The notes under the pieces were generated by a model. That model saw only the letters and a program-made list of their open reading frames with translations. It was not told the origin of the DNA and did no database searches. DNA of 64,000 bases. Origin: Pseudolabrys taiwanensis. Its GTDB lineage: Bacteria > Pseudomonadota > Alphaproteobacteria > Rhizobiales > Xanthobacteraceae. This document shows positions 29,674 to 63,723 of the stretch, piece after piece. How positions within the stretch are numbered: the stretch's first letter is position 1; the number at the start of each line of letters is the position of its first letter. The translations under genes were made by a program, and so were the position numbers. The DNA is taken from contig NZ_CP031417.1 in NCBI RefSeq assembly GCF_003367395.1, positions 1,426,001 through 1,490,000 on the forward strand, read 5' to 3'.

Positions 29674-30909
29674 TTAGGTCGTTTGTTGTGCGGCCGGCGG
29701 GAAATCCGCCACCGGTGCGGCCGTCTCGGCGCGCCGCTCGACACCTGGAAACGTCACGACCTCCTGGATGAGGTCGGCCGCGCCGATGAGCGTCTCCTGC
29801 GTCAGATGCGCGTAACGCTGTGTCGTGCGCGCGTGCAGATGCCCCAGCAGGCCCTGCACGACATAGAGCGAGACGCCGCGGTTGACGAGGAAGCTCGCGA
29901 ACGAATGACGCAGGTCGTGGAGACGGACATCCTCGAGCCCTGCCCGCTTGCGGATGCGATCCCAAGGAAAGAACAACGACGGCGATGGCTTGCCGTTCAC
30001 CGGCGACGGGAAGATGTACGGATTGCCTTCCATCCGCGGCGTCGACGTCAGCAGCGCGATCGCCGACTGGTTCAGCGCCACGACGCGGGCGCGGCCCGAT
30101 TTCGACTTCGGCACCAGAAGCGTCTTGTTCTTCCAGTCGATGTAGTCCCACTTCGCGAAGGTGACTTCGTTCCGGCGCGCACCGGTCAACAGCAGCAACA
30201 TGATGCACCGCGCCGCCGTGCGGTTCTCATCGGCATGGATCGCGCGCATCAAAGCTTCCGCCTCCTCCTCGCTGAGGAAGCGGTTGCGCTGCACGTCGGG
30301 CCCGGCGGTCAAGCCGGCGGCCGGATTCTCCAGCCCACCGGGCACCTTCCACTTGCGGGCGAGATTATAGATGTAGCGCAGGATGACGATCACGCGGTTC
30401 ATCGTGCCGGCCGCGTAACCATCCTCGCGCATGCGATTGATCAGATCGGTGATGGCGTCGGTTTTGATCTCGTCGAGTGCCAACGCGCCGAGCTTCGGCA
30501 GGATGTGAATGCGCAGAACCGTCTCGTCGGTCGACCAGCTGTTCTTGTAGGTTTGCACGTAGGGCAAATAGCGCTCGGCGACGAAATCCCTGAGCAAGGG
30601 GACGGCGCGCAGCTCGCGCCGCTTTTGCTGCGGGTCGGCGCCCAGCAGCGCCTCGGCAACGATCTGCTTGGCCTTCCGCCGCGCCTGATCGAGGGAGACG
30701 ACGTCGGCGGGGCCGATTTTGTACTGGCGCTCGCGGCCACGCTCATCGGTGTATCGCTGGTAATAGGTCTTGCCGCCGGAGCAGCGCACTTCGAGGAGAA
30801 AGCCGCGTTGCGTTGAATCGAAATAGTCAGTCTTCCTGCGGCCGGTGGGACACACGGCCTGACGTACGAAAGGAACTGACAACACAACAGTCGGCATAGC
30901 CGTAATCAC
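29674..30909 (-). CDS. Tyrosine recombinase / phage-type integrase
   Basis: A 411-aa site-specific recombinase of the island and prophage integrase type. The N-terminal part (YFDSTQRGFLLEVRCSGGKTY) is the DUF4102-like arm-binding domain, followed by a SAM-like core-binding domain at about 105-200. The catalytic residues are all present: Arg245 (LTGARRNEV), Lys270, His331 and Arg334 (HDLRHSFASF), His357 (LLGHLHA) and Tyr366 (RTTQRYAHLT), so it is probably active. No excisionase, cargo or tRNA attachment site was recognised next to it. An internal Met5 (30897) is an alternative start. Confidence 0.9.
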   Translation of the reverse strand: MITAMPTVVLSVPFVRQAVCPTGRRKTDYFDSTQRGFLLEVRCSGGKTYYQRYTDERGRERQYKIGPADVVSLDQARRKAKQIVAEALLGADPQQKRRELRAVPLLRDFVAERYLPYVQTYKNSWSTDETVLRIHILPKLGALALDEIKTDAITDLINRMREDGYAAGTMNRVIVILRYIYNLARKWKVPGGLENPAAGLTAGPDVQRNRFLSEEEAEALMRAIHADENRTAARCIMLLLLTGARRNEVTFAKWDYIDWKNKTLLVPKSKSGRARVVALNQSAIALLTSTPRMEGNPYIFPSPVNGKPSPSLFFPWDRIRKRAGLEDVRLHDLRHSFASFLVNRGVSLYVVQGLLGHLHARTTQRYAHLTQETLIGAADLIQEVVTFPGVERRAETAAPVADFPPAAQQTT

Positions 30910-31359: not shown

Positions 31360-32232
31360 TCAGCCGACCGGCGTTACCTGCACGGCGACTTCGAGGCGCT
31401 GTCCGCCGGCGGCGACAATAACGCCGTCGATCGGTGCCACATCGGCATAATCGCGGCCGATGGCGAGCACGAGATGATCGGTGCCCGCCGGCATGTCGTT
31501 GGTCGGATCGAGCCCGATCCAGCCCGCCTCGTCCCCGCACCACACCAGCACCCACGCGTGCATGGCGTCGGCGCCCTCCAGCTTGACTTCGTCGCCCGGT
31601 CGCGCCGTGCGCAGATAGCCGCTCACGTAAGCGGCCGGCAGCCCAAGCGAGCGCAGCCCCGAGATCATCACGTGCGAGAAGTCCTGGCAGACGCCACGCC
31701 GCAGCGCGAATGACATCGGCGGCGTGGTGGTCGCCGTCGTCGCACCAACCTCGTAGACGAAGTCGGCCTTGATGCGGCCCATCAGATCGACCGCGCCTTC
31801 AAGCACCGGCCGCCCTTCGGGAAAACTCGCGGCCGCATATTCGCGGATCTCAGGATCGAGCGAGACCACGCGGCTGGCGAACAGGAAATGTGCGGGCGCT
31901 TCCGGGCTGAAATCGGTGCAGCGTACGGCGGCCTCCCGCACCTCCTCCCACGCCGGCGTCTCGCCCGGCTGCTGCGGCGGCTCGACGACAATACGCGCGG
32001 CGACACGCACGCTGAGCACATCATGCTGCTGCTCGAGCTTGATCCAGGTGACTCGGTTGCCAAAGAAGTCGCGGCCTTCGCGGCGCTCGACAGGCGCCGG
32101 CGTGACGTCGAGCGCGGCGGCGTGCACGCGCTGCCCCGGGCGATCGATCGGTGTCAGCCGCAGCGCGTGGTGCGCGTCGGTGACCGCGGAGTCGTAATGA
32201 TAGGTCGTGACCTGGCGCACGTCGTAGATCAT
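31360..32232 (-). CDS. Transglutaminase-like cysteine peptidase/ligase domain protein
   Basis: A 290-aa cytoplasmic protein (no signal peptide). An N-terminal beta domain (MIYDVRQVTTYHYDSAVTDA then HHALRLTPI) precedes the transglutaminase core with Cys182 (RRGVCQDFSH), His225 (DAMHAWV) and Asp242 (GLDPTND). The fold includes amide-bond hydrolases and acyltransferases. It is last in the operon and its ATG overlaps the stop of the ATP-grasp/alpha-E gene by four bases. Companions point to cleavage or transfer of a peptide or isopeptide bond made by the ligases; this is inference. Confidence 0.9.
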   Translation of the reverse strand: MIYDVRQVTTYHYDSAVTDAHHALRLTPIDRPGQRVHAAALDVTPAPVERREGRDFFGNRVTWIKLEQQHDVLSVRVAARIVVEPPQQPGETPAWEEVREAAVRCTDFSPEAPAHFLFASRVVSLDPEIREYAAASFPEGRPVLEGAVDLMGRIKADFVYEVGATTATTTPPMSFALRRGVCQDFSHVMISGLRSLGLPAAYVSGYLRTARPGDEVKLEGADAMHAWVLVWCGDEAGWIGLDPTNDMPAGTDHLVLAIGRDYADVAPIDGVIVAAGGQRLEVAVQVTPVG

Positions 32233-34730
32233 TCGAGCGCTTCCCAGGCTGCTTCCGAACGTTCGCGCGCGGTGAAGTAGTTGGACCCGATCAGGTCCGA
32301 CAGTTTCATCAGCGCATTCTCGATCTCGATCAGGTCGTTCGCATCGATCGCCGTGGCGTCGGATGTACGGATCCTGGTCGCCAGCGCCGATGCCACCTGC
32401 TCCGGGGGTGACAGCCGGCCGTCTTGTCCACGCCGCGGCAATGCGGCGAGATGCGTTTCGATGCGCGCCAGTTGATAGACGATGGAACGCGGATTGTTCG
32501 GATCGAGCACGACCAGATCGATGACTGGCGCTCGCGCCGCCACCATCACATAACGCAGACGATACGTGATCTGGCTGTCTGCGAGTTCAAGCAGACAATC
32601 GAGCGCTCCGTCCAGCCGTTCGCCAAAAGCGAACTGGCGCACGAAACGCGAGGTCGCGAGTGCGCGCTCCAGACGGCGGCCGAGCTCGAGATAGCGCCAG
32701 CCGACCGCCTGGCTCATGTTCTCCTGCGCCAATCCCGAGAACGAAGCGACGATACGGAGCGCGCCATCAACCCTTTCAAACATGGCGCTTTCGGCCGGCC
32801 CCTGTTCCAGCGGCGTGCTGATCAGATTCGACAGCTCGGTCAGAGCACGCCAGGCATCCGGCGAGAAGCGGTCGCGGATCACCGACGCGGCGGCCTCGGC
32901 CGCCCCCGTCAGCGCGGGCAACGCACCGTAAAGATCGCGACTTTGCATCGCGGCCGATGCGACCAGCGCCGGCTTGACGCTGAGCATGTCGGGCGCAACG
33001 GCGTCCCAGCTCGCCAGCAGCGCCGTGATGCTGGCGCAGACCGCGCTCAAAGCCTCATCGCTCTCGGTCGACCGGCTCACGAGCGCACGCACCAACCGCA
33101 ACGTCGCCTCCGCGCGCTCGACGTAACGTCCGAGCCAGAACAGATTGGCGGCGGCCCTACTCGGCAGCGGTCCGGTCGAACGATTGATGGCCACGCGATC
33201 GGGCGCCGGCAACAGCGTCAGGTGCGCGACCGGCTTGTCGGAGACCACCCAGGCATCGGCGGTGCGCCCGCCGCGCTGAAGGCTGACCGCACGCGCGTCG
33301 ATGTCGTCGGCGATGCGCACGAAGCCACCCGGCATCACCCGCCAGCCGTCGCTGGTGCGGGCCAGCAGCAGCCGCAGGCTGAACGGACGCGGCACCAGCT
33401 TGCCATTATCCCATACGGGCGTTGTCGACAGCGTCACCGCTTCCTGCGCCACAAAGTCGATGCCGCGGCGGCCGATCGCTTCGATCATCGCCGCGCGGCC
33501 CGCGTCGTCCAACTGCTTGCCGAGCACGTAAGGCCGGTTGAATGGCGGCGGCAGATCGCGGTTGAACGCACAGGCAATCACGAGATCGTCGAGCCGCTCG
33601 ATCACGTCCTCGCGTACGCTCGGATCGCCCAGCCACCAAGTGGCGACGTTCGGCAATGCGAGGTCCTTACCGGTCAGGATCGGCGCCAGCGCCGGCAGGA
33701 AGCTGAGCATCGCGCGCGCTTCCATCACGCCCGCACCGAGGCTGTTGGCGACGACGACGTTGCCGTCGCGGATCGCCTGCATCAGGCCCGGCACGCCGAG
33801 ACGCGAGCGTGCCGACAGTTCGAGTGGATCGGCGAAGTCGGCATCAAGCCGGCGCAGCAGCACTTCCGCGCGCTTGAGCCCGGAGACGGTGCGGATGAAA
33901 ACGCCGTCGGGGCGTACCGTGAGATCTTCGCCTTCGACCAAAAGAAACCCGAGGTAACGCGCGAGATAAGCGTGCTCGAAATAGGTCTCGTTCAGCGGTC
34001 CGGGCGTGAGCACGCAGACGCGGCTGTCGTCCTGCCGGTTGAGCGAGGACAGCTCCATCTGGAAGGCTTGAAAAAACGGCGCCACGCGCTCGACGCGCAA
34101 GTCGCGGTAGATGTCCGGCATGGCGCGCGACAGCGCCAGCCGGTTTTCCAGGGCATAGCCGGCGCCGGACGGCGCCTGGGTGCGATCGCCCAGCACCCAC
34201 CAGCGTCCGTCCGGCGAGCGGCCGACATCGACGCCGTAGAAACGCAGATGGGCGCCACCTGGCGGCTCGACGCCGACCATCGGCCGCAGAAATTCCGGGT
34301 TGCCGGCAACGACCGGCGCCGGCAGCCGGCCGTCGCGAATGAACTCGGCCGGGCCGTAGATGTCGCCGAGGATGGCTTCGAGCAGCTCCGCGCGCTGAAC
34401 GAGGCCAGCCTGCAACTCCTGCCATTCGGTGGCATCGATGATCAGCGGCACATGCGACAGCGGCCACGGCCGCACCGCGCCGGCCGGGTCCTCGTAAACC
34501 CGGTAGAAGACGCCGGAGTCGCGCAAATGACGGTCGGCCGCCGCAAAGCGCCGGTTGACCTCGTCCGGCCCGAGGTCGGCGAGCATCTGCAGGAACGGCC
34601 GCCAATGCGGGCGCACGTGGCCCGCATGGTCCATCATCTCATCGAAATTTCGCGGCAGCGGGCAGTAGTAGCCCGACAGCAGGCTTTCCAGCTCGCCAGG
34701 CGGCGCCGCGGCGTTCTCGGGCGAGGTCAT
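32229..34730 (-). CDS. Circularly permuted ATP-grasp ligase fused to alpha-E (DUF403) domain
   Basis: An 833-aa protein starting at the ATG at 34730, seven bases after the stop of the upstream gene. Residues about 20-490 are the circularly permuted ATP-grasp (DUF404/DUF407) ligase: FYRVYEDPAGAVRPWPLSHV, RFYGVDVGRSPDGRWWVLGD, GYALENRLALSRAMPD, then LTPGPLNETYFEHAYLARYL. Residues about 520-825 are the helical alpha-E domain (LPSRAAANLFWLGRYVERAE; EQGPAESAMFERVDGALRIV). ATP-grasp enzymes join a carboxylate to an amine via acyl phosphate, so a peptide-bond-forming role is predicted. In many genomes the two domains are separate genes. Confidence 0.9.
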   Translation of the reverse strand: MTSPENAAAPPGELESLLSGYYCPLPRNFDEMMDHAGHVRPHWRPFLQMLADLGPDEVNRRFAAADRHLRDSGVFYRVYEDPAGAVRPWPLSHVPLIIDATEWQELQAGLVQRAELLEAILGDIYGPAEFIRDGRLPAPVVAGNPEFLRPMVGVEPPGGAHLRFYGVDVGRSPDGRWWVLGDRTQAPSGAGYALENRLALSRAMPDIYRDLRVERVAPFFQAFQMELSSLNRQDDSRVCVLTPGPLNETYFEHAYLARYLGFLLVEGEDLTVRPDGVFIRTVSGLKRAEVLLRRLDADFADPLELSARSRLGVPGLMQAIRDGNVVVANSLGAGVMEARAMLSFLPALAPILTGKDLALPNVATWWLGDPSVREDVIERLDDLVIACAFNRDLPPPFNRPYVLGKQLDDAGRAAMIEAIGRRGIDFVAQEAVTLSTTPVWDNGKLVPRPFSLRLLLARTSDGWRVMPGGFVRIADDIDARAVSLQRGGRTADAWVVSDKPVAHLTLLPAPDRVAINRSTGPLPSRAAANLFWLGRYVERAEATLRLVRALVSRSTESDEALSAVCASITALLASWDAVAPDMLSVKPALVASAAMQSRDLYGALPALTGAAEAAASVIRDRFSPDAWRALTELSNLISTPLEQGPAESAMFERVDGALRIVASFSGLAQENMSQAVGWRYLELGRRLERALATSRFVRQFAFGERLDGALDCLLELADSQITYRLRYVMVAARAPVIDLVVLDPNNPRSIVYQLARIETHLAALPRRGQDGRLSPPEQVASALATRIRTSDATAIDANDLIEIENALMKLSDLIGSNYFTARERSEAAWEALE

Positions 34731-34737
34731 CGCGGCA

Positions 34738-37700
34738 TCACATCTGAGTCGGACGCCGCAGGTCGAGGGTCGTCGGGTATTCGAGCGAGCGTTCTTCCGC
34801 GGGAATCGTGAAGGCGCCGGGGGTGTGGCCACGCGCTTCGAACCGGGCGAGCCGGCGGGCCTGGGCTTCGTAGGAGTTCACGGGGAAAGTCTCGTAGTTG
34901 CGGCCGCCCGGGTGGGCGACGTGATACACGCAGCCGCCCAAGGAGCGGCCATTCCAGGCGTCATAGATATCGAAAGTGAGCGGCGCCTGCACAGGAACCG
35001 TGGGTTGCAACGCCGCGGCGAGCGCCCAGGCCTTGAACCGCACGCCCGCGACGAATTCGCCGCTGCGCCCGGTCGGCGTGAGCGGCATGCGGCGGCCATT
35101 GCACGTCACCGCGTGGCGGGCAGGATTGAGGCCATCCACCCTCACCTGCAAGCGCTCGACCGAGGAGTCGACGAAGCGCGTCGTGCCGCCCGCGACGCTC
35201 TCTTCGCCCAGCACATGCCAGGGCTCGAGCGCGTGACGCAGTTCGAGTTCGACGCCGCCATGGGTGACGCTGCCGTAGAACGGGAAGCGGAATTCGCGCT
35301 GCGCCTCGAACCAGACCGGATCGAACGGATAACCGGCGTGCGAAAGATCGGCGAGCACGCCGAGGAAATCCTGCCAGACGAAATGGCCGAGCATGAAGCG
35401 GTCGTGCAGCGTCGTGCCCCACCGCACCAATTGTCCCTGCTGCGGCTCGCGCCAGAACCAGGCGACCAGCGCGCGCAACAGGAGCTGTTGCGCGAGGCTC
35501 ATGCGCGCATCGGGCGGCATCTCGAAAGAACGGAATTCGACAAGACCCAGGCGTCCGGTCGGTCCATCCGGCGAGAACAGTTTGTCGATGCAGATCTCGG
35601 CGCGGTGCGTGTTGCCGGTGACGTCGACCAGCAAGTTGCGAAACAGCCGGTCCACCAGCCACGGCCGCGGAGCTTCGCCGGCATTCGGCGGCGGCACCAG
35701 GCCCATCGCGATCTCGAGCTCGTACAACAGATCGTGGCGCGCTTCGTCCATCCGCGGCGCCTGGCTGGTCGGGCCGATGAACAGACCGGAGAACAGATAG
35801 GACAGCGACGGATGGCGCTGGAAATACAGCACCAGGCTCTTCAGCAGATCGGGCCGGCGCAGGAACGGACTGTCGGCCGGCATCTCACCGCCGAGCACGA
35901 CGTGGTTGCCGCCACCGGTGCCGGTATGCCGCCCGTCGGTCATGAACTTGTCGGTGCCGAGCCGCGACAGCCGCGCCTCGTCGTAAAGCGTGCGCGTGAT
36001 GTCGACCGCTTCGCGCCACGACGCGGCCGGATGCACGTTCACTTCGATGACCCCGGGGTCGGGCGTCACCTTGATCACGTTCAGCCGCGGATCGGGCGGC
36101 GGCAGATAGCCTTCGATATGCACCGGCAGATCGAGTTCGGCCGCGGTCGCCTCGACAGCACCCAGCAGGGCGACATAATCGTCGAGCCGCTCGGTCGGCG
36201 GCATGAACACGCAGAGCTGACCATCGCGCGGCTCGATCGTCAGCGCGGTGCGCACCGGCCAGCCGCCCGAGCCGCCGCTATACCCGGCCGGCTCGGCCAT
36301 GCGCGCCTGCGGCGACAGCGCCGCAGCATAGGCCGTCGAAACGGCGAAGCTGCGGGCCAGCGCCGCAGCGTCCGGCAAAGGCCGCGGCTCATCGAAAGGA
36401 TCGGCAGGCGCCGGCAACGGCTCCTCGAATGGGCGCAGATAAGGCAGCGACTTCAGCGGCAGACGGAAGCCGATCGGTGAATCCCCCGGCAGCAGGAACA
36501 ACCGCTGGCGCCGCGTCTGCCAGATCTCGCTGAACCAGCCACCGCCCGCACCCAGCGCGCCCCAACGCTGCACCGGCAGCACGTAGCCGGTCGGCACCGA
36601 CAAAGGCCGTTCGAACTCGCGCATGATCCGCGCGCGCTCGACCGGGTCGTCGATCTTGGGATCGGCCGGGTCGACATTCGGCGGCAGCGCGCCTTCCTTC
36701 AACAGACGATCGGCCGGATCCTCGAAGGCCGGCTGCACGTAATCGCGCGTGAGACCCAGTTTGCCGGCAAGCACTTCCGTAAAGCGCTGCGCATCGGGCG
36801 CCGACGGCGGCTGCGTGCGCGGCTTGGCTGCGACGAGGGCGGCATCCTGCCAGAGCGGCTTACCGTCCTTGCGCCAGATCAGCGACAGCGCCCAGCGCGG
36901 CAGCTCTTCGCCCGGATACCATTTGCCCTGGCCGTAATGCAGCATGCCGCCCGGCGCGAAACGGTCGCGCAACTTACGGATCAGCGTATCGGCTAACTGA
37001 CGCTTAGTCGGCCCGAGCGCCGCCGTATTCCACTCCGCGGATTGGTAGTCGTCGATCGACACGAAGGTCGGCTCGCCGCCCATGGTGAGCCGTACGTTGT
37101 GGGTAGCAAGATCGGCATCGACCTTCTCGCCCAGCGCATCGAGCGCTTTCCACGCCGCGTCGGAAAACGGGAAGGTCACGCGCGGCTTTTCGTTGATGCG
37201 CGTCACCTTCATCTCGAAGGCGAAGTCGACCTTGGCGGCCTCGACGCCGCCGCTGATCGGCGCCGCCGCGCGATAATGCGGCGTGGCGGCGAGCGGCAGA
37301 TGCCCCTCGCCCGTCAGCAAGCCGGACGTCGGATCGAGACCGATCCAGCCAGCGCCGGGTAGATAGACTTCGCACCAGGCATGCAGATCGGTGAAGTCCT
37401 CTGCCGCGCCAGCCGGACCGTCGAGTGCCGCGATATCGGGCTTCAACTGGATGAGGTAGCCGGAGACAAACCGCGCGGCGAAGCCGAGATGGCGTAACGC
37501 CTGCACCAGCAGCCACGCGCTGTCGCGGCACGAGCCGGACGCGCAAGCGAGCGTTTCTTCCGGTGTCTGAACGCCCGGCTCCATGCGCACGAGATACCGT
37601 ATCTCGTGCTGAAGGCGTTGATTGAGAGCGACCAGGAAGTCTGTGGTGTTCTGCTTTCCGCGCGGTACCGAGGCGAGAAAGGCTTCAAGCCGCGGCCCGA

Positions 37701-38067
37701 GCGGCTCCTTCACCAGATACGGCGCCAATTCCTCGGCGAATTCCGCCGGGTAATCGAAGGGAAAATCGGTCGCGAAGGGTTCGACAAAGAAATCGAACGG
37801 ATTGACGACCGACATGTCGGCGGTCAGATCGACGGTAACCGAGAACTCGCGTGTGCGTTCGGGGAAGACGAAGCGCGCCAACCAATTGCCGTTCGGATCC
37901 TGCTGCCAGTTCACGAAATGCTGGCTCGGCGTCACCTTCAGCGAATAACTCAAGATGGTCGTACGCGTGTGCGGCGCCGGCCGCAGGCGCACGACCTGTG
38001 GCCCGAGCGCGACCGGACGGTCGTAGAGGTAGCGCGTGACGTGCCTGAGACTGACTTGAATTGACAT
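34738..38067 (-). CDS. Transglutaminase-like domain fused to DUF2126 (putative amidoligase)
   Basis: A 1109-aa protein starting at [20 protein letters not shown] (ATG 38067). Residues 1-300 are a transglutaminase module with Cys180 ([10 protein letters not shown]), His229 (DLHAWCEV) and Asp245 (GLDPTSG). Residues about 305-1105 are DUF2126, predicted to be a glutamine-synthetase-fold COOH-NH2 ligase; recognisable pieces are [34 protein letters not shown] (nucleotide/metal-site-like), [20 protein letters not shown] and [20 protein letters not shown]. The product is unknown. An ATG 16 codons upstream lacks homology and is rejected. Confidence 0.9.
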
Positions 38068-38190
38068 GCCTTGGACTTCTCCGCCGGACCCAAACGGGCT
38101 TGATAAGAGAAGCAAGTTTCAGGCCGCCAAGCGACACTGTTGCGACGGCGGCGGAACCGCCGCCAGCCGGATTTCGTCTTTTGTATCAGC

Positions 38191-39321
38191 TTATTGGGTC
38201 GGCTCCGGCGCGGCAACGGCTCGCTTTAGTCCCGCGACGACCGCGCGCAGCGGCTCCTCGGGCGCCGCCGCATCGGCCGAACCATGGGCGCCGTGGATGA
38301 GCGCATGGATGAAAGCCAGCTTCACGATGACCGTCGGCGCCAACACGAAAGGATAAAGATCCGGCACCCCCATGCTGCGGTTGATCGAGTTGACCGCGAA
38401 AGTCAGCGGCAGCCAGGCATCGACGATGCGCTCCATCTCGACCTCGTGCGGATCGAAATCGACCGCGGTGGCAAGTTCTGCCCCCATGGTCACGCGCGGC
38501 CGCACGCGCAGACCAAAAGCCTTGGCGGTCTCCAAGGTATCCACCATGTGGAAGTAGTGCGCCCAGGTCTCGGCGAAATCCTCCCACGGATGACTGCTGG
38601 CATAAGCGGTGACGAAGTGCTCGTTCCAATCCGGCGGCGGGCCGTTGTCGTAGTGTCGCTTCAGCGACTCACCGTAGTCGATCGTTTCATCGCCGAAGAG
38701 CTGACGGAATTCGGTGATGACCGGCTTATCCTTGATCAATTGATCCCAGTAATAGTGCGCAATTTCGTGCCGGAAGTGCCCGAGCAGCGTACGGTAGGGC
38801 TCGCCGAGCGCGTGACGGGCACGCTCGCGTTCGGCGTCGTCGGCTTCGGCGATATTGATCGTGATCACGCCATTGGCGTGACCCGTCATCACCGGCTCGC
38901 CGGCCGCCGACTTGAAGTCGAAAATCAAGCCATTGGCATCGCCGGCTTGGCCGCCCAGCGGCAACTTCAAGCGCAACAGCGAATAGAACAGCCGATGTTT
39001 TGCCGTTTCGATCTTGCGCCAATTGAAGAGGTTCTGCGGCACGGACAGATCGGGAATGGTGCGGTTATGGCGGCAGGCCGCGCAGAATTGCTCATCGCTA
39101 TCGGCGGCGACCAGCCAGTTGCACACCTCGTGTTCGGCGTTGGCGCAGTAGCGATAGCGCCCATCGGGGTCGGCCAAAGCACGCCAAACGCCATTGTCGT
39201 CCTCGAGCGCAGTCACGGTCCCACGGCCCGGCAGATAGCCGAGCTTATGCCCGCAGCTCTCGCAGCGCGTATTTTCGAAGTAGAGCGGCTGGCCGCAATG
39301 CTGGCACTCGAACAGCTTCAT
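38191..39321 (-). CDS. Zinc-ribbon putative zinc metallopeptidase
   Basis: A 376-aa protein. The N-terminal 90 residues carry two Cys clusters (Cys6, Cys9, Cys20, Cys23; then Cys59, Cys67, Cys80, Cys83), consistent with zinc ribbons. The main domain has the HEXXH metallopeptidase motif His185-Glu186...His189 (GHFRHEIAHYYWD), and a downstream PWEDFAETWAHYFH provides further ligands. Cytoplasmic. It is first in the amidoligase operon, 123 bp before the DUF2126 fusion. A processing or editing peptidase for the ligase product is a reasonable inference. Confidence 0.88.
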   Translation of the reverse strand: MKLFECQHCGQPLYFENTRCESCGHKLGYLPGRGTVTALEDDNGVWRALADPDGRYRYCANAEHEVCNWLVAADSDEQFCAACRHNRTIPDLSVPQNLFNWRKIETAKHRLFYSLLRLKLPLGGQAGDANGLIFDFKSAAGEPVMTGHANGVITINIAEADDAERERARHALGEPYRTLLGHFRHEIAHYYWDQLIKDKPVITEFRQLFGDETIDYGESLKRHYDNGPPPDWNEHFVTAYASSHPWEDFAETWAHYFHMVDTLETAKAFGLRVRPRVTMGAELATAVDFDPHEVEMERIVDAWLPLTFAVNSINRSMGVPDLYPFVLAPTVIVKLAFIHALIHGAHGSADAAAPEEPLRAVVAGLKRAVAAPEPTQ

Positions 39322-39450
39322 CGGCTTCGCGAAGTTGATTGGCCCGGGTTATGAAACTGCTGGTGACAGAAAAGGTTGCAGACACGGTGCGGCCTTGGCC
39401 TCCTCGCGCATCGCCCGCTATCATGCCGCGAATTCACGCACGACCGGCCA

Positions 39451-40338
39451 ATGACACCACACAACCTTGCCGCCCTCAACACCGCGCCCGCCACGGACTT
39501 CGTCGCCGCCCTCGCCGGCATCTACGAGCACTCTCCCTGGATCGCCGAGGCGGTCGTCGCGCAGCGGCCGTTCGCCAGCCTGCTGGCGCTGCACGACGCG
39601 ATGATCGGCGCCGTGCGGGGCGCCTCCGCCGATAAGCAGTTGGCGCTGGTCAAAGCCCATCCCGATCTCGCCGGCAAGGCGGCGCGCGCCGGCGAACTCA
39701 CCGCCGCCTCGACCAGCGAGCAGATGAGCGCCGGCCTCGACCGGCTGAGCGACGCGGATTATGCGCGCTTCCATCGGCTCAACGATGCGTACAAGGCGCG
39801 CTTCGGCTTTCCTTTCATCGTCTGTGTGCGGCGACACACGAAAGACTCGATCCTGCGGGCCTTCGAGCGGCGGCTTGCGCATAGCGCGGACGAGGAGTTG
39901 GCCACCGCCCTCACCGAGATATTCCGCATCGCGGCGCTGCGGCTCGACCAGGCGGTCGCGGCGGACGACAAGCTCAAAGTAGCGGGCCGCATCTCCACCC
40001 ACGTGCTCGACACGCATGCGGGCCATCCCGCCAAAGGCGTCGTCGTGGAGCTGTGGGAATTATCGGCGTCTGGCGACAGCCGCTTCGTCGCGCGCGGAAT
40101 AACCAACAGCGACGGCCGCACCGATGCGCCCTTGATCGGCGGCCGGCCGGTGCCGATCGGCGTCTACGAACTGCGCTTCGACGTCGCCACTTATTTCGCC
40201 GATCGTGGCATCAGCCTTCCCGACCCGCCGTTCCTTGGCATCGTGCCGCTCCGTTTCTCCGTGGCGGAGCCGGAGGGGCACTATCACGTGCCGCTGCTGG
40301 TCACGCCGTGGAGCTACTCGACCTATCGCGGCAGCTAG
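39451..40338 (+). CDS. UraD-UraH fusion: OHCU decarboxylase / 5-hydroxyisourate hydrolase
   Basis: A 295-aa bifunctional enzyme of urate breakdown. Residues 1-170 are OHCU decarboxylase with catalytic His70 in KAHPDLAGKAARAGELT; residues 177-295 are the transthyretin-like HIU hydrolase, from GRISTHVLDTHAGHPAKGV to the hallmark C-terminal TPWSYSTYRGS. Together they convert 5-hydroxyisourate to S-allantoin. The ATG at 39451 starts just before the UraD fold. The two steps are consecutive, but the hydrolase half is C-terminal. Fits the purine genes that follow. Confidence 0.93.
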   Translation: MTPHNLAALNTAPATDFVAALAGIYEHSPWIAEAVVAQRPFASLLALHDAMIGAVRGASADKQLALVKAHPDLAGKAARAGELTAASTSEQMSAGLDRLSDADYARFHRLNDAYKARFGFPFIVCVRRHTKDSILRAFERRLAHSADEELATALTEIFRIAALRLDQAVAADDKLKVAGRISTHVLDTHAGHPAKGVVVELWELSASGDSRFVARGITNSDGRTDAPLIGGRPVPIGVYELRFDVATYFADRGISLPDPPFLGIVPLRFSVAEPEGHYHVPLLVTPWSYSTYRGS

Positions 40339-42079: not shown

Positions 42080-43649
<1,570 letters not shown>

Positions 43650-43666
<17 letters not shown>

Positions 43667-44741
43667 GCGGCGCGCCGAGCGCTCGACCTTGATCGCGATC
43701 GCCTCGCCGCTGCTCGCGATCGCCCTCACCCTCGTCACCATGTCGATCCTGGTGGCGGTCATGGGCAAGAACCCACTCGCCGCTTTGTGGGTCTATTTCA
43801 TCGAGCCGCTGACCGACTCCTACGCGTTGCAGGAGTTGGTGGTGAAAGCCTCGCCCCTGGTGATGATCGCGGTCGGCTTGTCGCTCTGCTATCTCGCCAA
43901 TGTCTGGAACATCGGCGCCGAAGGCCAATTCATCATCGGCGCGGTGTGCGGCTCCTGGCTCGCCGTCATCACCAACGGAACCGGCGCCGGACCGTGGGTG
44001 CTGCCGGCGATGCTCGTGCTCGGCGCCGCCGGCGGCGCGCTCTACGCGCTCATTCCGGCGCTCTGCAAGGTGCGCTTCGGCGCCAGCGAAATCCTCACCA
44101 GCCTGATGCTGGTCTATGTCGCCGATCTGTTGATGGACTATTTGGTGCGCGGCCCCTGGCGCGATCCCAAGGGCATGAACTTCCCCACCACCGCCGAGTT
44201 CGACCCGGTCGCCACGATGCCGACCTTGGTCGAAGGCAGCCGCCTCCATGCCGGCGCGCTCGTTGCGCTGATCGTGGTGATCGGTGCCGCCGTACTGCTC
44301 GGCCGCACCATCAAGGGTTTCGAGATCCGCGTCGTCGGCGCCGCGCCGAAGGCCGCGCGCTTCGCCGGCTTCAATGCCAACCAGCTGGTGTTGTTCACAT
44401 TCGCCGTGTCCGGCGCGCTTGCCGGGCTAGCCGGAATCATCGAAGTGGCGGGGCCGGTCGGCCATCTGCAGCCCGGCATCTCACCGGGTTACGGCTTCAC
44501 CGCGATCATCGTCGCGTTCCTTGGCCGGCTCAATCCGATCGGCATCCTCGTCGCCGGACTGTTCCTCGCCCTCACCTTCATCGGCGGCGAAGGCGCGCAG
44601 ATCTCGATGAAGCTGCCGCTCGACCTCACGAAGGTGTTTCAGGGCATCCTGCTGTTCTACGTGCTCGCCTGCGACTCCATGATCCTCTACCGCATCCGCC
44701 TCATCGGCTCTTCGCGAAAGGCCGCCCATGGGCCTGTTTGA
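43650..44741 (+). CDS. Nucleoside-type ABC transporter permease 1
   Basis: A 363-aa inner-membrane permease of the BPD_transp_2 family with about ten helices. The coupling and signature region is SLCYLANVWNIGAEGQFIIG; later GFNANQLVLFTFAVSGALAG is also typical. The ATG at 43650 has ACGGGAGG six bases before it, which decides it over frames starting upstream. It overlaps both neighbours (ATPase by 17, second permease by 14 bases), so translation is coupled. Confidence 0.92.
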
Positions 44742-45648
44742 AGCCATCGTCCTCTCGGTTATCGCCGCCTCCACGCCGTTGTTGCTGGCGGCCGCCGGCG
44801 AATTGGTCGTCGAGCGATCCGGCGTGCTCAATCTCGGCGCCGAAGGCATGATGATCATGGGTGCCGCCTGTGGTTTTGCCGGCGCCTGGCTCACCGGCTC
44901 GACTTTCATCGGCGCCCTGTTCGGCATCGCCGCCGGCGTCGCGATGTCAGCCATCTTCGCCGTGCTGACGCTTGGCCTCGCCGTCAACCAGGTGGCGACC
45001 GGCCTCGCGCTCACCATCCTTGGCATCGGCCTATCCGGCCTCATCGGCGCCGGCTTCGTCGGCGAGCGCATCAACCCGGCGCCGCATCTTTACGTTCCCG
45101 GACTCTCCGACCTGCCGGCGCTCGGGCGCATCGTCTTCAATCAGGACGGCTTCGTTTACTTCTCGATCCTGCTGATCGCCGGCATCTGGTGGTTTCTCTA
45201 TCGCACCCGTGCCGGGCTCATCCTTCGCGCCATCGGCGACAATCATGCCTCGGCGCATGCGCTCGGCTATCCGGTGCTCAAGGTGCGCTTCTACGCCGTG
45301 CTGTTCGGCGGCGCCTGCGCCGGACTTGGCGGCGCCTATCTGCCGCTCGCCTACACGCCCTTCTTCATTCCCGGCATGACCGCAGGCCGCGGCTGGATCG
45401 CCCTGGCGCTCGTCGTCTTCGCGTCCTGGCGGCCGCTCCGCCTGGTCGCCGGAGCTTACCTGTTCGGAGCGGTATCGATCTTGCAGCTTCATGCGCAAGG
45501 CGCCGGCATCGGCATTCCCTCGCAACTGATGTCGTCGCTACCCTACCTCGCTACTGTTATCGTCCTCGTCTTGATTTCGCGGACGCGCGCTAGCGCCGGA
45601 TCGGCCGCGCCTGCATCGCTTGGAATGGCGTTCGTCCCCGATCGTTGA
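44728..45648 (+). CDS. Nucleoside-type ABC transporter permease 2
   Basis: A 306-aa permease of the same family, forming the membrane heterodimer with permease 1. It contains VVERSGVLNLGAEGMMIMGA, the family signature, and helices through VAGAYLFGAVSILQL. Its start overlaps the end of permease 1. Confidence 0.92.
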   Translation: MGLFEAIVLSVIAASTPLLLAAAGELVVERSGVLNLGAEGMMIMGAACGFAGAWLTGSTFIGALFGIAAGVAMSAIFAVLTLGLAVNQVATGLALTILGIGLSGLIGAGFVGERINPAPHLYVPGLSDLPALGRIVFNQDGFVYFSILLIAGIWWFLYRTRAGLILRAIGDNHASAHALGYPVLKVRFYAVLFGGACAGLGGAYLPLAYTPFFIPGMTAGRGWIALALVVFASWRPLRLVAGAYLFGAVSILQLHAQGAGIGIPSQLMSSLPYLATVIVLVLISRTRASAGSAAPASLGMAFVPDR

Positions 45649-45669
45649 GATTCTAACCGGAGTGATCCC

Positions 45670-46746
45670 ATGAAAAAGCTACTCGTCACCGCCGTCGCCG
45701 TGCTGGCGGCCGCCGCGACCGCGCTGCCCGTATCCGCCGCGGAAAAACTGAAGGTCGGCTTCATCTATGTCGGCCCGGTGGGCGATTTCGGCTGGACCTA
45801 CCAGCACGAAGTCGGCCGTCAGACCATCGTCAAAGAGTTCGGTGACAAGATCGAGACAACCTATCTCGAGAACGTCAGCGAAGGTCCGGACTCCGAGCGC
45901 TCGATCGAGCAACTCGCCCGCACCGGCCATCAGCTTATCTTCACGACGTCGTTCGGCTACATGGACCCGACGGTGAAGGTCGCCAAGAAGTATCCGAAAA
46001 TCGATTTCGAGCATGCCACCGGCTACAAGCGCGCGGACAACCTCGGGATCTATTCGGGCCGCTTCTATGAAGGCCGCTACATCCAGGGCATCATCGCCGC
46101 CAAGATGTCGAAGACCGGCGTGCTCGGCTATATCGGCTCGTTCCCGATCCCCGAAGTGATCTCGGGCATCAACGCCACCATGCTCGGCGCGCAGACCGTC
46201 AATCCGAACATCAAGATCAAGATCATCTGGGTGAACACCTGGTTCGATCCGGGCAAGGAAGCCGATGCCGCCAAAGCGCTGATCGATCAGGGGGCGGACA
46301 TCATCATGCAGCACACGGACAGCCCGGCCGCCATGCAGGTCGCGGCGCAGCGCGGCATCTACGCCTTCGGCCAGGACTCCGACATGAGCAAGTTCGGCCC
46401 GAAGACCCAGCTCACCGCCATCATCAACAATTGGGCGCCCTATTACGTGCGCCAGGTGAAAGCCAAGCTCGACGGGAAATGGAAGGCCGAAGACACCTGG
46501 GACGGCCTGAAAGAAAAGATGGTCATGATGGCGCCCTACACCAACATGCCCGACGATGTGAAGAAGATGGCGCAGGACACGGAGGCGGCGATCGTCGCCG
46601 GCACGCTGCATCCGTTCAAGTGCCCTGTCCTCGGCCAGGACGGCAAACCCGTCGAGTGCAAAGGCGGCACGCATCTCGATGCCGGCCAGATCCTCGGCAT
46701 GAACTTCTATGTGAAGGGCGTGGACGACAAATTCCCAGGCAAGTGA
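45670..46746 (+). CDS. BMP family periplasmic nucleoside-binding protein
   Basis: A 358-aa substrate-binding protein of the BMP (PnrA-like) family. The signal peptide KKLLVTAVAVLAAAATALP ends in VSAA without a lipobox Cys, so the protein is probably soluble in the periplasm. KVGFIYVGPVGDFGWTYQHE is the diagnostic start of the fold, followed by TTSFGYMDPTVKVAKKYP and IGSFPIPEVISGINATMLG. BMP proteins bind purine nucleosides. It is 21 bp after permease 2 with GGAGTGATCCC before the ATG. Confidence 0.93.
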   Translation: MKKLLVTAVAVLAAAATALPVSAAEKLKVGFIYVGPVGDFGWTYQHEVGRQTIVKEFGDKIETTYLENVSEGPDSERSIEQLARTGHQLIFTTSFGYMDPTVKVAKKYPKIDFEHATGYKRADNLGIYSGRFYEGRYIQGIIAAKMSKTGVLGYIGSFPIPEVISGINATMLGAQTVNPNIKIKIIWVNTWFDPGKEADAAKALIDQGADIIMQHTDSPAAMQVAAQRGIYAFGQDSDMSKFGPKTQLTAIINNWAPYYVRQVKAKLDGKWKAEDTWDGLKEKMVMMAPYTNMPDDVKKMAQDTEAAIVAGTLHPFKCPVLGQDGKPVECKGGTHLDAGQILGMNFYVKGVDDKFPGK

Positions 46747-46913: not shown

Positions 46914-48251
46914 CTACCCCCGCAGCTTGCGCGCCGCCTCGTTATGACGGCGCATCAGGGCGGCAAGATCGAGACCGGGAATGACGCCGTTCTCGACCGT
47001 CCAACGGCCGTCGACCATGACGCGGTCGGCGCGATGCGCGCCGCACAGCACGAGTGCCGCGAGCGGATCGCCGGCGCCGGAGAAGCGCAACTCGTCGAGC
47101 TTGAATAACGCAAAATCGGCGCGCTTGCCGACGGCGATCTCACCAAGCTCAGGCCGTCCAACGCACGCCGCCGAGCCTTGCGTCGCCCACCGCAGCGCAT
47201 CCTTGTGGCTGACTTTCGAGACGCCGTAGCGCGCCCGCTGCACCAGGAACGCCGCGCGCACCTCCTGCATCAGGTTCGAACCGTCATTCGACGCCGAGCC
47301 GTCGACGCCGAGACCGACCTTCACGCCGGCCGCTTCCAGTTCGCACACCCGGCACGTGCCTGAGCCGAGCACTTGATTGCTGCACGCACAATGGCTGACG
47401 CTGATCCCCGCTCTGGCCATGCGCGGCATCTCCTCGGCCTGGAAGTGGACGCCGTGTGCCAGCCAGACGCGGCTCGACAACCAGCCGCATCGCTCGAGAT
47501 AATCGAGCGGCCGGCAGCCATAGAGACTGTCGCAGAAGCGATCCTCGTCCTCGGTTTCGGCCAAATGCGTATGCAGGCGCACGTCGAGTTTGTCGGCAAG
47601 CTCGGCAGTCGCGCGCATCAGCGACGTCGTCACCGAAAACGGCGAGCACGGCGCCAGGGCCACCTGCACCATCGCCGCCTCGCCGCGCTCATGGAAACGC
47701 GAGACGACGCGTTCGCTGTCAGCAAGGATCGTATCCTCGTCCTGCACGACGCTGTCGGGCGGCAGGCCGCCGTCGCGCTCCGACAGGTTCATCGAGCCGC
47801 GCGTCAACAAGACGCGCAGACCGAGACGCTTGGCGGCCGCCACCTCGATGTCGACGCCGTCTTCCAGCCCGTTTGGAAACACATAATGATGGTCGGTCGT
47901 GGTGGTGCAGCCCGACAGCATCAGTTCGGCCATCGCCACGGTCACCGCGGCATCGAGCGCCTCAGGCGTCAGCTTTGCCCATACCGGATAGAGCGCCTTG
48001 AGCCAGGGAAACAGTTCGCGGTCGAGCGCGGCCGGCAGCGCGCGGGTGAGCGTCTGATAGAAATGGTGGTGGGTGTTGATCAAACCTGGGAGCACCACGT
48101 GCTCGCCCGCGTCGTACGTCCCAGTCGGCGTTCTCGGCTCCCTGCCCATCCCGACCAATTCGACGATCCGGCCGTCGGCGACCACGACGCCGCGCTCGGC
48201 GCCATCGGCCAAGATCGCCAGAGGGTCCTTGATCCAGAGCGCTTCGCTCAT
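46914..48251 (-). CDS. 8-oxoguanine deaminase-like amidohydrolase (or guanine deaminase)
   Basis: A 445-aa cytosolic metal-dependent deaminase of the COG0402 amidohydrolase family. Metal ligands are in GLINTHHHFYQTLTRALP, in RLHTHLAETEDE, in WLAHGVHFQ and in LGVDGSASND. NTHHHFYQTLTRA and the whole layout resemble bacterial 8-oxoguanine deaminases (producing urate) more than classical guanine deaminases. Divergent from the molybdenum hydroxylase genes with 60-75 bp between, and next to the nucleoside importer. A longer upstream frame is rejected because the domain starts at MSEALWIKDPLAIL. Confidence 0.85.
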   Translation of the reverse strand: MSEALWIKDPLAILADGAERGVVVADGRIVELVGMGREPRTPTGTYDAGEHVVLPGLINTHHHFYQTLTRALPAALDRELFPWLKALYPVWAKLTPEALDAAVTVAMAELMLSGCTTTTDHHYVFPNGLEDGVDIEVAAAKRLGLRVLLTRGSMNLSERDGGLPPDSVVQDEDTILADSERVVSRFHERGEAAMVQVALAPCSPFSVTTSLMRATAELADKLDVRLHTHLAETEDEDRFCDSLYGCRPLDYLERCGWLSSRVWLAHGVHFQAEEMPRMARAGISVSHCACSNQVLGSGTCRVCELEAAGVKVGLGVDGSASNDGSNLMQEVRAAFLVQRARYGVSKVSHKDALRWATQGSAACVGRPELGEIAVGKRADFALFKLDELRFSGAGDPLAALVLCGAHRADRVMVDGRWTVENGVIPGLDLAALMRRHNEAARKLRG

Positions 48252-48326
48252 TTGGCAGCTCCCATTAACCCGGCGAACATACAGGGACAGGCAAAGTCGC
48301 GGCCACATTCTTGCATGGGTGCGGGT

Positions 48327-49151
48327 ATGGACCTGAACACAATCACGGAAGTGATGCGGCCCTCGGAACGCGCCGAATTGCCGGCTTGGCGGGAGGGCGA
48401 CGCCTATCTCGCGGGCGGCACTTGGCTGTTCTCGGAGCCGCAGCCCCATCTCAAGCGACTGATCGATTTGCCAGGCCTCCGGCTCGCCCCGCTGCAGGCA
48501 ACGCCGGCGGGCCTGACGATCGCCGCGACCTGCACCATTGCGCAACTCGAGAGCGTCGCGTTACCCGCCCCGTGGACGGTGAAGCCGCTGATCGAGCAGT
48601 GCTGCCGCGCTTTCCTCGCTTCCTTCAAGATCTGGAACATGGCGACTGTCGGCGGCAATCTGTGCATGTCCCTGCCGGCCGGCCCGATGATCTCCCTCAC
48701 CACCGCGCTCGATGGCGAATGCGTCATCTGGTCGTCGGATGGCGGCGAGCGGCGCGTGCCAGTCATCGACTTCGTGCTCGGGCCGCAGCGCAATGTGCTC
48801 CAACCGGGCGAGTTGCTGCGGCAGATCGAGCTGCCGAGCGCGGCCATGACGCGGCGCACCGCCTTCCGCCAGATTTCGCTGTCCCCGCTTGGACGCTCGG
48901 CGGCGCTGCTCATCGGCACGCGCACGACAGACAGCGACGCTTTCACCCTCACCATCACGGCGTCGACGCCGCACCCGGTGCGGCTCGCCTTCGAGACGAT
49001 GCCTTCGGCCGCGGCTCTGCGTGCCCGCATTGAAGATGAGGTGCCGGCGGGCGCCTACTACAACGATGTACACGGCGCGCCGGATTGGCGGCGCGCGATG
49101 ACCCTCACCTTCGCCGAAGAAATTTGCGCTGAACTGACAGGTGCGCGATGA
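48327..49151 (+). CDS. Molybdenum hydroxylase FAD-binding subunit (xanthine dehydrogenase-type)
   Basis: A 274-aa CoxM/XdhB-like FAD subunit. The N-terminal domain has [20 protein letters not shown]; the FAD pyrophosphate loop is [19 protein letters not shown]; the CO_deh_flav_C domain is at about 170-270. It passes electrons from the Fe-S centres to NAD+ or another acceptor. The ATG at 48327 is used; one four codons earlier (48315) is equally possible. It ends in an ATGA overlap with the next gene, its partner. Confidence 0.88.
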
Positions 49152-61538: not shown

Positions 61539-62708
61539 TCAGAGCTTGCAGTCTTTGGCGAAAGAGTCGCCGTAGGCCGACATGATCTTGCGCTTGGTGT
61601 TGAGGTGCGGCGCACCGTCCGCGCCCTTCTCCACTTTCAGCGCGTACCAGTCCTGAACGGGATGCTGGTTGGGGCCGAACTTGAAGTTGCCGCGCACCGA
61701 CTTGAAGTCCGCTTTCAGCATCGCCTTGCGGAAAGCGTCCGTATCGTCGACCTTGCCGCCGGTCTCCTTCAACGCCGCGCCGATGGCGAGCGCCGTGTCG
61801 TAGCCCTGGGCCGCATAGTAGGTCGGCGGACGGTTGTACTCCTTGGTCCATGCCGCCATGAACTCTTTGTTGGCGGCATTGTCAAAGTCGGCGTTCCAGT
61901 GCGCGGTCACGTTCAGGCCGAGCGCGGCGTCCCCGACCGCCTTCAGGGTCACGGCATCGAGCGATGGCTCGGCGACCACCATCGGAATCTCGGTGTTCAG
62001 GTTGGCCTGCTGATACTGACGCAGGAAGGCGATGCCGAGGCCGCCCGGCTGGAACTGGAACACCATCTCGGGCTTGGCGGCGCGGATCTGCGCGAGTTCG
62101 GCGGAGAAATCCGTCTGGTCGAGCTTAGTGTAGATCTCGCCGACGATCTTGCCCTTGAAGAAGCGCTTGAAGCCGGCGAGCGCGTCCTTACCGGCCTGAT
62201 AGTTCGGCGCGAGGATGAAGGCCGTCTTGAAGCCGAGCTCGGTCGCGTTCTGGCCGGCGCTTTCGTGCAGGCTGTCGTTCTGCCAGGAGATCACATAGTA
62301 GTTCTTGTTGCAGCCCTTGCCGGAGAAGGTCGAGGGCGCCGCGTTGGGGCTCACGTAGATGCCGCCGGCGTCCAGCACGTCCGGCACGACGGCGCCGGAC
62401 ACGTTCGAGAACACGATGCCCGTGAACAACTTGATCTTGTCGTTCTTGAGCATCTTGTCGGCGATCTGCTTGCCCTGCCCCGGCTTGAGGCCGTCGTCTT
62501 CCACCACGACTTCGACCGGAACGCCGCCGAGCTTGCCGCCCTGCATCTTGATCGCGAGATTGAAGGCGTCGCGGATATCCTGGCCGAGATAGCCGCCCGG
62601 GCCCGACAGCGTGGTGATGAAGCCGACCTTGAGCGGCGTTTGCGCCAAGGCCCCCGCCCCGGCGGCCAAAGTCATCGCAGCGGCGCACGCTAGTGAAGCA
62701 ACTCGCAT
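61539..62708 (-). CDS. Liv-type periplasmic substrate-binding protein
   Basis: A 389-aa binding protein of the Peripla_BP_6 (LivK-like) family. The signal peptide is VASLACAAAMTLAAGAGALA; the mature part begins QTPLKVGFITTLSGPGGYLG. A bound-ligand type is not readable; such proteins in alphaproteobacteria bind amino acids, amides, urea or aromatic acids. First of the transporter genes in transcription order. A near-duplicate begins beyond 63711. Confidence 0.92.
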   Translation of the reverse strand: MRVASLACAAAMTLAAGAGALAQTPLKVGFITTLSGPGGYLGQDIRDAFNLAIKMQGGKLGGVPVEVVVEDDGLKPGQGKQIADKMLKNDKIKLFTGIVFSNVSGAVVPDVLDAGGIYVSPNAAPSTFSGKGCNKNYYVISWQNDSLHESAGQNATELGFKTAFILAPNYQAGKDALAGFKRFFKGKIVGEIYTKLDQTDFSAELAQIRAAKPEMVFQFQPGGLGIAFLRQYQQANLNTEIPMVVAEPSLDAVTLKAVGDAALGLNVTAHWNADFDNAANKEFMAAWTKEYNRPPTYYAAQGYDTALAIGAALKETGGKVDDTDAFRKAMLKADFKSVRGNFKFGPNQHPVQDWYALKVEKGADGAPHLNTKRKIMSAYGDSFAKDCKL

Positions 62709-62769: not shown

Positions 62770-63723
62770 TCAAAGCGGCACGTACGTATAGCCCGCGCTG
62801 GCCCGCTCGAAGCGGCCGAATACCGGCGTTGGAAAATGATACGGTGCAACGATTGTGCCACGGGCCACACAATCGTCGAGCAGACGGCGGCGCGTGGCAT
62901 TGGCCATCGCCGGGTCCTGACAGAAATTCGATGTTGTCTCCGGATCGCTCAATTGCAGCGGGTGGTGAACGGCGTCCGCCAGGAACAATACTTCCGTGTC
63001 CTCCGCCTTAAGTCGTACGACCGCCATGCCCGGCGAATGCCCATGCGCCGGCTCGAGCGAGATGCCCGGCGCGATCTCGCTCGGCGTTGCCACCGTCTCC
63101 AACCGACCGCGTTCGACCAGCGGCGCGACGCTGTCGGCATAAGCGCCGTGCAACGTCTCGACGCCCTGGGTCTCGTAAAGCTTGCCCCAATGCGCCAGTT
63201 CGCCTTCCGGAGTCACGTAACGCGCCCGTGGAAAGGCCGGCACCCAGGCGCCGTCTTTGAGCACCGTGTTCCAGCCGACGTGGTCTGCGTGCAGATGCGT
63301 GTTGATGACGATGTCGAAGCGCTCCGGCGTAAACGACATCGCCGCCAACGCATCGAGAAATTTGCTCGTCCGCTTATGCCAACGCGGGCGATCGGGACGA
63401 TCCTTGTCATTGCCGATGCCGGCATCGACCAGCACCAACGCGTCCGGCGTCTCGACGACGTAGGAGTTGAAGCTGAGCAGCAGGCCCTCTTCCGCCACGT
63501 CGATCATGCCGGCGGGCGTATTGGCCGCCGCCCGCACCAGGGCATCACCTGTCATCGCCCGGAACATTGCGGTCGCCGGCCACTTCACACGGTCCATGTC
63601 GGCGATGCGATGAATGCGGTACGGCCCGATGTGCAGGCTGTGCACATCGAAGCCGAGGACGTCGCGCTGGGACTGTTCGATCACAGCGCGATTCGCATTG
63701 CTGGCCGCGCTCACAGTTTGCAC
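62770..63723 (-). CDS. MBL-fold metallohydrolase
   Basis: A 317-aa metallo-beta-lactamase-fold hydrolase. The metal motif is VINTHLHADHVGWN, with later ligands in EPAHGHSPGMAVV and FLADAVHHPLQLSD. No signal peptide, so cytosolic. Candidates are lactonase, thioesterase or amide hydrolase. A GTG at 63723 (or 63714) starts it, overlapping the 3' end of the upstream binding-protein gene. Sits between two Liv-type binding proteins, so it may process the imported compound. Confidence 0.88.
   Translation of the reverse strand: MQTVSAASNANRAVIEQSQRDVLGFDVHSLHIGPYRIHRIADMDRVKWPATAMFRAMTGDALVRAAANTPAGMIDVAEEGLLLSFNSYVVETPDALVLVDAGIGNDKDRPDRPRWHKRTSKFLDALAAMSFTPERFDIVINTHLHADHVGWNTVLKDGAWVPAFPRARYVTPEGELAHWGKLYETQGVETLHGAYADSVAPLVERGRLETVATPSEIAPGISLEPAHGHSPGMAVVRLKAEDTEVLFLADAVHHPLQLSDPETTSNFCQDPAMANATRRRLLDDCVARGTIVAPYHFPTPVFGRFERASAGYTYVPL

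Follow-up and report, generated by a model that had tools for sequence, protein, structure and literature searches.

The protein families that meet at the locus analysed here reportedly form a predicted peptide-tagging or peptide-synthesis system: Iyer et al. are said to have brought together in 2009 an ATP-grasp protein, a glutamine synthetase (GS)-like ligase, an alpha-E protein, a transglutaminase and an NTN-hydrolase. Both the families and the way they group have been predicted before, and the present operon is a common member. To our knowledge, the function of the Anbu and DUF2126 gene sets has not been established. In the Anbu operon of Yersinia the standalone ATP-grasp frees phosphate from ATP, and the excerpted text of the same study reports no peptidase activity of Anbu with standard substrates and no specific interaction of the operon's proteins (PMC6376114). 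According to excerpts of another study, Anbu is bound by proteasome inhibitors and protein degradation is favoured over peptide synthesis (PMC5666114); in both publications, as excerpted, the ATP-grasp family is treated as putative ligases. The Rlo/Rim systems, as described in excerpts of PMC12239564, combine an ATP-grasp with an aspartic protease, to which Rlo adds a membrane-bound inactive transglutaminase.

The window, i.e., the whole stretch of 64,000 nucleotides analysed here (G000, C1:1426001-1490000), carries four collinear genes on its minus strand, all with named domains scoring above the Pfam cut-offs. The first encodes a 376-aa metallopeptidase with a Zn-ribbon (38191..39321; PF15887, Peptidase_Mx, 356 bits; PF10005, Zn_ribbon_DZR_6, 122 bits) and ends 123 bp before the ATG (38067) of the second, the transglutaminase-DUF2126 fusion of 1109 aa (34738..38067, stop at 34738; Bact_transglu_N, Transglut_core and DUF2126, 1312 bits). 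The transglutaminase-like cysteine-enzyme domain occupies residues 1-293 of this protein (37189..38067) and DUF2126 corresponds to 34756..37239. A 7-bp gap (34731..34737) separates the DUF2126 stop from the ATG (34730) of the 833-aa fusion of a circularly permuted ATP-grasp with alpha-E (32229..34730, stop at 32229; CP_ATPgrasp_2, 459 bits; Alpha-E, 214 bits), a predicted pseudo-ligase as discussed below. Its ATP-grasp-like domain, residues 61-532 of an 867-aa reading (33237..34652), is homologous to the solved structure 3N6X (E 4.2e-74), and the helical alpha-E domain (32274..33167; PF04168, 214 bits; model pLDDT 92.4) keeps both E-R motifs. The stop of the fusion overlaps in ATGA (32229-32232) with the start of the last gene, encoding a standalone transglutaminase-like protein of 290 aa (31360..32232; Bact_transglu_N and Transglut_core), whose Cys, His and Asp codons lie at 31687-31689, 31558-31560 and 31507-31509. 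The earlier note had described this layout correctly, including the gap and the overlap, the alpha-E domain, the two transglutaminase-type sites, both with intact Cys-His-Asp, and the HEXXH peptidase, whose zinc-binding motif is HEIAH at residues 185-189 (38755..38769).

The start at 38067 is supported by a 1109-aa database copy, P0005, of 99% identity, and an extension of the transglutaminase-DUF2126 gene to a TTG at 38115 is unlikely; the start at 34730 is supported by an identical 833-aa copy, P0125. Named database matches to the window proteins include Pseudolabrys sp. and Xanthobacteraceae, the closest named one (93%) being labelled Microbacteriaceae bacterium K1510. Just downstream of the operon lies a gene for a tyrosine recombinase/phage-type integrase (29674-30909, minus strand), which was matched in none of 142 other loci at E < 1e-20.

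The conserved unit consists of the last three genes, the metallopeptidase being an occasional, usually divergent neighbour. Among the matches listed, at least 593, from which 80 loci were kept, the fused ATP-grasp/alpha-E follows transglutaminase-DUF2126 in 70 of the 80 loci, and the order transglutaminase-DUF2126, fused ATP-grasp/alpha-E, transglutaminase is found in 53 of 80, where contig ends and simple gene calling may account for part of the loci without the full order. The metallopeptidase, among the same matches listed, occurs in 9 of 80 loci, seven times divergent and twice downstream on the opposite strand, and in none of the 80 is it collinear upstream as in the window. It is therefore linked to the unit and not a fixed member of it, and the four-gene transcription unit proposed earlier is not supported as a conserved one. 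In a Caballeronia plasmid the metallopeptidase gene, read from the opposite strand, is placed between alpha-E and DUF2126. As regards a peptide tag or peptide product, the 25 most frequent neighbour families (ORFs of at least 70 aa) are Anbu and otherwise generic or lineage-bound families.

Sequence alignment rather than structural superposition was used to place the residues of the ATP-grasp domain on 3N6X. Columns conserved in at least 93% of the 42 standalone copies number 130; in most of the 34 fused copies about 48 of these have changed, so that the loss extends beyond the ATP site. The changed columns include E154 and N156 of the motif E-D-N-x-R-x-P-S-G, D312-D313-K314, K361, G367-G368-Y369-G370 and D421; the metal-binding, ATP-lysine and glycine-loop roles of these positions we take from the ATP-grasp superfamily. 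In the window copy the E-x-N metal motif, the ATP-binding Lys and the Gly-rich loop of active ATP-grasp ligases are absent, and GDRTQAPSG (34164..34190, minus strand) stands at the place of the standalone motif, so that E and N, the predicted metal ligands, are missing. Six positions were then scored in 105 fused copies, the 34 aligned and 71 further ones: none is kept in 87 copies, one in 13 and two in five, never more, and among 92 representatives at 90% identity the corresponding numbers are 74, 13 and 5. Taken singly, E154 is kept in two of the 105, N156 in none, K314 in three, K361 in seven, G368 in 11 and D421 in none. All six are present in 42/42 standalone copies by construction, since they were picked from columns already invariant there. 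In the window copy all six are lost. The earlier note had named the loss of the ATP-binding residues in structural alignment as a reason to abandon its proposal; that loss is largely what the sequence alignment to 3N6X gave.

The replacements are ordered: N156 is R in 97 of the 105 fused copies, R158 is Q in 85 and D312 is E in 100, and nine other positions, picked as seemingly unchanged, are identical in 105/105. For both reasons the fused site is remodelled rather than decaying, and since a different conserved motif takes the place of the lost residues, the fused ATP-grasp can be read as a retained pseudo-ligase; judged from its sequence, the window's copy is probably one. In a tree of the ATP-grasp domains, two long rows of which were flagged by the tool, a branch of length 1.38 with a support of 100/100 separates the 34 fused copies from the 43 others. 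The fused-type motif is present also in Granulicella, an acidobacterium; the motif pattern gave no match in the fused copy of B. multivorans. In the alpha-E domains of the fused and the standalone kinds the E-R motifs are kept and other positions are changed. It is also worth noting that in genome G126 (locus L071, 9853-12276) a fused ATP-grasp/alpha-E, the longest end branch of the tree, lies beside a standalone ATP-grasp and alpha-E, and that this genome gave no DUF2126 match.

The conservation of the replacement residues over such distances, the acidobacterium included, would also suit a fused ATP-grasp that has become an enzyme of a new kind, acting on a nucleotide or phosphoryl substrate in the rearranged site (DRxQxPSGxG, E312); a pocket can gain new chemistry after its canonical residues have gone. 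We consider this unlikely, as nearly all copies have lost the usual metal ligands and most of them the glycine loop, and a conserved partner-binding surface would look alike. The reading closest to the earlier proposal, in which the operon's ATP-grasp and DUF2126 are both active ligases making an amide or isopeptide that the peptidases trim, draws on the high Pfam score of the ATP-grasp domain (459 bits), on the view of the family as putative ligases (excerpts of PMC5666114 and PMC6376114) and on the phosphate released from ATP by the Anbu-operon ATP-grasp (excerpt of PMC6376114). That enzyme, however, is of the Anbu-operon and not of the fused kind, and the fused copies rarely keep ATP-site positions (the motif N and D421 in 0/105 each; the window copy 0/6), which makes activity of both very improbable.

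The earlier proposal of two COOH-NH2 ligases is not supported for the ATP-grasp. The model of DUF2126 has a glutamine-synthetase fold (pLDDT 81.3, pTM 0.78), and the invariant residues of the domain, E844-x-R846, GGG-N/x-H722 and R822, resemble GS motifs by eye; profile comparison with hhalign gave no match between DUF2126 and GS. DUF2126 is likely the only ligase of the window operon, the ATP-grasp of which lacks the predicted ATP and metal residues.

One set of 200 Pseudomonadota genomes served for all the family searches: 63 have DUF2126, 112 alpha-E, 29 Peptidase_Mx and 69 Anbu. A shared phylogenetic profile of the families is supported with respect to alpha-E: all 63 DUF2126 genomes, which span 23 families, also have alpha-E (Fisher p 2.6e-21), as do 68 of the 69 Anbu genomes (p 5.9e-22) and 28 of the 29 Peptidase_Mx genomes (p 3e-07), kinship being ignored in all three tests. 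Among the alpha-E genomes there is no association between DUF2126 and Anbu (35 with both, 28 with DUF2126 only, 33 with Anbu only and 16 with neither; p 0.24) or between Peptidase_Mx and DUF2126 (p 0.19); Anbu was not detected in 28 of the 63 DUF2126 genomes. At least two alpha-E genes are present in 57 of the 63, and the remaining six have a single alpha-E, whose open frame measures 327-370 aa and which is therefore of the standalone type. Altogether, a standalone-type alpha-E is found in all 63 DUF2126 genomes, in 62 within an open frame shorter than 600 aa and in the last, G167, as a copy apart from its ATP-grasp (L064). Six genomes have at least two alpha-E genes and no DUF2126. The DUF2126 and Anbu-type modules share one region in 17 of 37 DUF2126 regions.

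The second alpha-E locus of the host genome, at C1:504147-505082, about 0.95 Mb from the window operon, is an Anbu operon (L037) comprising the genes for ATP-grasp, alpha-E, transglutaminase and Anbu, and its ATP-grasp, one of the 42 standalone copies, keeps the ATP and metal positions. The only Anbu match of the genome lies at C1:502448-503191, and no Anbu was found by Pfam among the window operon genes. The protein encoded by the L037 Anbu gene is similar to Anbu proteins of solved structure (5nyj, E 5.5e-71), and Pfam PF00227 gives no match to it (L037 8446-9192); family searches with PF00227 can therefore undercount Anbu.

Published transcriptomes of relatives connect Anbu-type operons with nitrogen shortage. 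In Burkholderia cenocepacia H111 an NtrC/sigma-54-dependent cluster comprises proteins annotated as DUF404/407, DUF403, transglutaminase-like and large transglutaminase, for which excerpts of PMC5491218 give fold changes of -8.2, -9.4, -9.4 and -6.0, respectively, in an ntrC mutant. The locus of B. multivorans has the order ATP-grasp, alpha-E, transglutaminase, TG-DUF2126, fused ATP-grasp/alpha-E and transglutaminase, and on the basis of this gene order the large transglutaminase protein of H111 is probably TG-DUF2126. In Pseudomonas putida grown on nitrate versus ammonium, PP_2685 (proteasome-type) and PP_2688 (ATP-grasp) were up by 4.44 and 3.99 log2 units; the response of the PP_2688 promoter to nitrogen depletion was 3.7-fold, but the PP_2685 upstream fragment was constitutive (excerpts of PMC8050072). 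PP2685, PP2686 and PP2687 were up 11.1-, 6.6- and 7.1-fold under nitrogen versus carbon limitation (excerpt of PMC3325844), and a sigma-54-type site is listed before a CP_ATPgrasp gene of Bradyrhizobium (excerpt of PMC13207237). Against this, expression of the Anbu operon was unchanged under various other conditions covered by the excerpted text of PMC5666114.

In a promoter scan allowing at most one mismatch to the sigma-54 consensus, with the other genes of the same loci as controls and kinship ignored, sites precede 16 of 44 standalone ATP-grasp genes versus 13 of 1370 other genes (p 2e-18); they precede one of 104 fused and none of 17 peptidase genes, and before TG-DUF2126 genes (1/116) they are not commoner than before the controls. 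At a weighted-score cut-off that about 1% of controls pass, 15 of 44 standalone ATP-grasp genes pass (p 5e-17), as does the host Anbu operon, and TG-DUF2126 genes pass in 2 of 116 cases (p 0.33), with the window operon failing the cut-off. At looser cut-offs TG-DUF2126 displays a weak excess (7/116 versus 17/1370, p 0.002; 13/116 versus 65/1370, p 0.006), and some DUF2126 modules may be sigma-54-driven, since good sites are present in L050, L090, L093, L081 and L079. The nitrogen link is thus clear for the Anbu-type module, partial for the DUF2126 modules and indirect for the window operon.

Other genes of the window may be mentioned here in their own right. A perfect match to the sigma-54 consensus, TGGCACAATCGTTGCA, lies at 62845-62860 (minus strand). 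About 136 bp downstream of it begins a periplasmic-binding-protein gene (61539-62708), and UrtB-, UrtC- and UrtE-like transporter genes come next, all below curated cut-offs. At 39376-40338 (plus strand) an OHCU decarboxylase is fused to a hydroxyisourate hydrolase, and adjoining it are an ABC transporter (42080-46746) whose binding protein is PnrA-like and a gene of the 8-oxoguanine deaminase family (46914-48545); this region is a purine breakdown cluster.

The induction under nitrogen limitation reported in the excerpted transcriptomes of relatives, together with the several hydrolase-type active sites (the Cys-His-Asp triads and HEIAH) and the preference of one Anbu study for degradation over peptide synthesis (excerpt of PMC5666114), could also point to a machine for nitrogen salvage, in which the transglutaminase-like domains, Anbu and the metallopeptidase free nitrogen that the GS-fold protein merely captures. 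The six ATP-site positions present in 42/42 standalone ATP-grasps argue for a ligation step instead, and no peptidase activity of Anbu with standard substrates is recorded in the excerpted text of PMC6376114; we regard the salvage reading as quite unlikely.

The reading we prefer, for which the odds seem about even, is that the three-gene module is a duplicated, specialised partner of the Anbu-type system, with DUF2126 as its ligase. The transglutaminase-DUF2126, the ATP-grasp/alpha-E fusion and the transglutaminase would accompany the Anbu-type operon found elsewhere in the genome. In view of its lost residues, the fused ATP-grasp, devoid of the usual ATP and metal binding, might be a subunit that, joined to alpha-E, binds the substrate or acts as a scaffold, and ligation by the operon itself would fall to DUF2126, whose GS fold is modelled. 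The two domains with Cys-His-Asp triads would be amidases, peptidases or transamidases acting on the same substrate. The Anbu-type module, on which the three-gene module would depend, would supply an ATP-grasp ligase and a peptidase, and both modules might jointly modify or turn over peptides or proteins under nitrogen shortage, as the transcriptomes of relatives suggest. Against this reading speak the window operon's want of a convincing sigma-54-like site, the 28 DUF2126 genomes in which Anbu was not detected, the missing association of DUF2126 with Anbu among alpha-E genomes, the fused gene of G126 in a genome with no DUF2126 match, and the broad divergence of the fused copies. A bolder version, which we hold to be highly doubtful, makes of them one nitrogen-starvation machine for two-ligase, non-ribosomal tagging, in which the dead ATP-grasp/alpha-E carries or presents the growing peptide or target protein between the ATP-grasp of the Anbu module and DUF2126.

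To the known predictions the present analysis adds that the fused kind has lost ATP residues, an observation for which no priority over Iyer et al. (2009) is claimed, that DUF2126 is nested within alpha-E genomes, and that the promoter signals differ. If the fused ATP-grasp is indeed a pseudo-enzyme, ligation assays of that protein alone are expected to fail, and the apt combination would be DUF2126 with the standalone ATP-grasp of the Anbu operon. The nesting and the nitrogen link point to concrete growth conditions and gene combinations.

Compared with the system of Iyer et al., the window operon has the same families, but it lacks the NTN-hydrolase (Anbu) and its ATP-grasp is devoid of the predicted ATP and metal residues; of the features of an amidoligase peptide-tagging system, DUF2126, the alpha-E E-R motifs and the Cys-His-Asp of the transglutaminases are present and the ATP-grasp residues are not. 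The Anbu operon of the host is the nearest relative at hand: its ATP-grasp, alpha-E and transglutaminase are paralogous to those of the window operon, yet it has neither DUF2126 nor the fusion, its ATP-grasp positions are kept and a sigma-54-like site is present, whereas Anbu is missing from the window operon, its ATP-grasp is remodelled and it shows no convincing sigma-54-like site. The Rlo/Rim systems likewise pair an ATP-grasp with a peptidase, and Rlo also has a transglutaminase-like partner; unlike the window operon they use an aspartic protease and an inactive, membrane-bound transglutaminase, and alpha-E is unmentioned in the excerpted main text of PMC12239564. With the glutamine synthetase-fold ligases, finally, DUF2126 shares its modelled fold; no profile similarity to them was found and, unlike them, it is fused to a transglutaminase-like domain.
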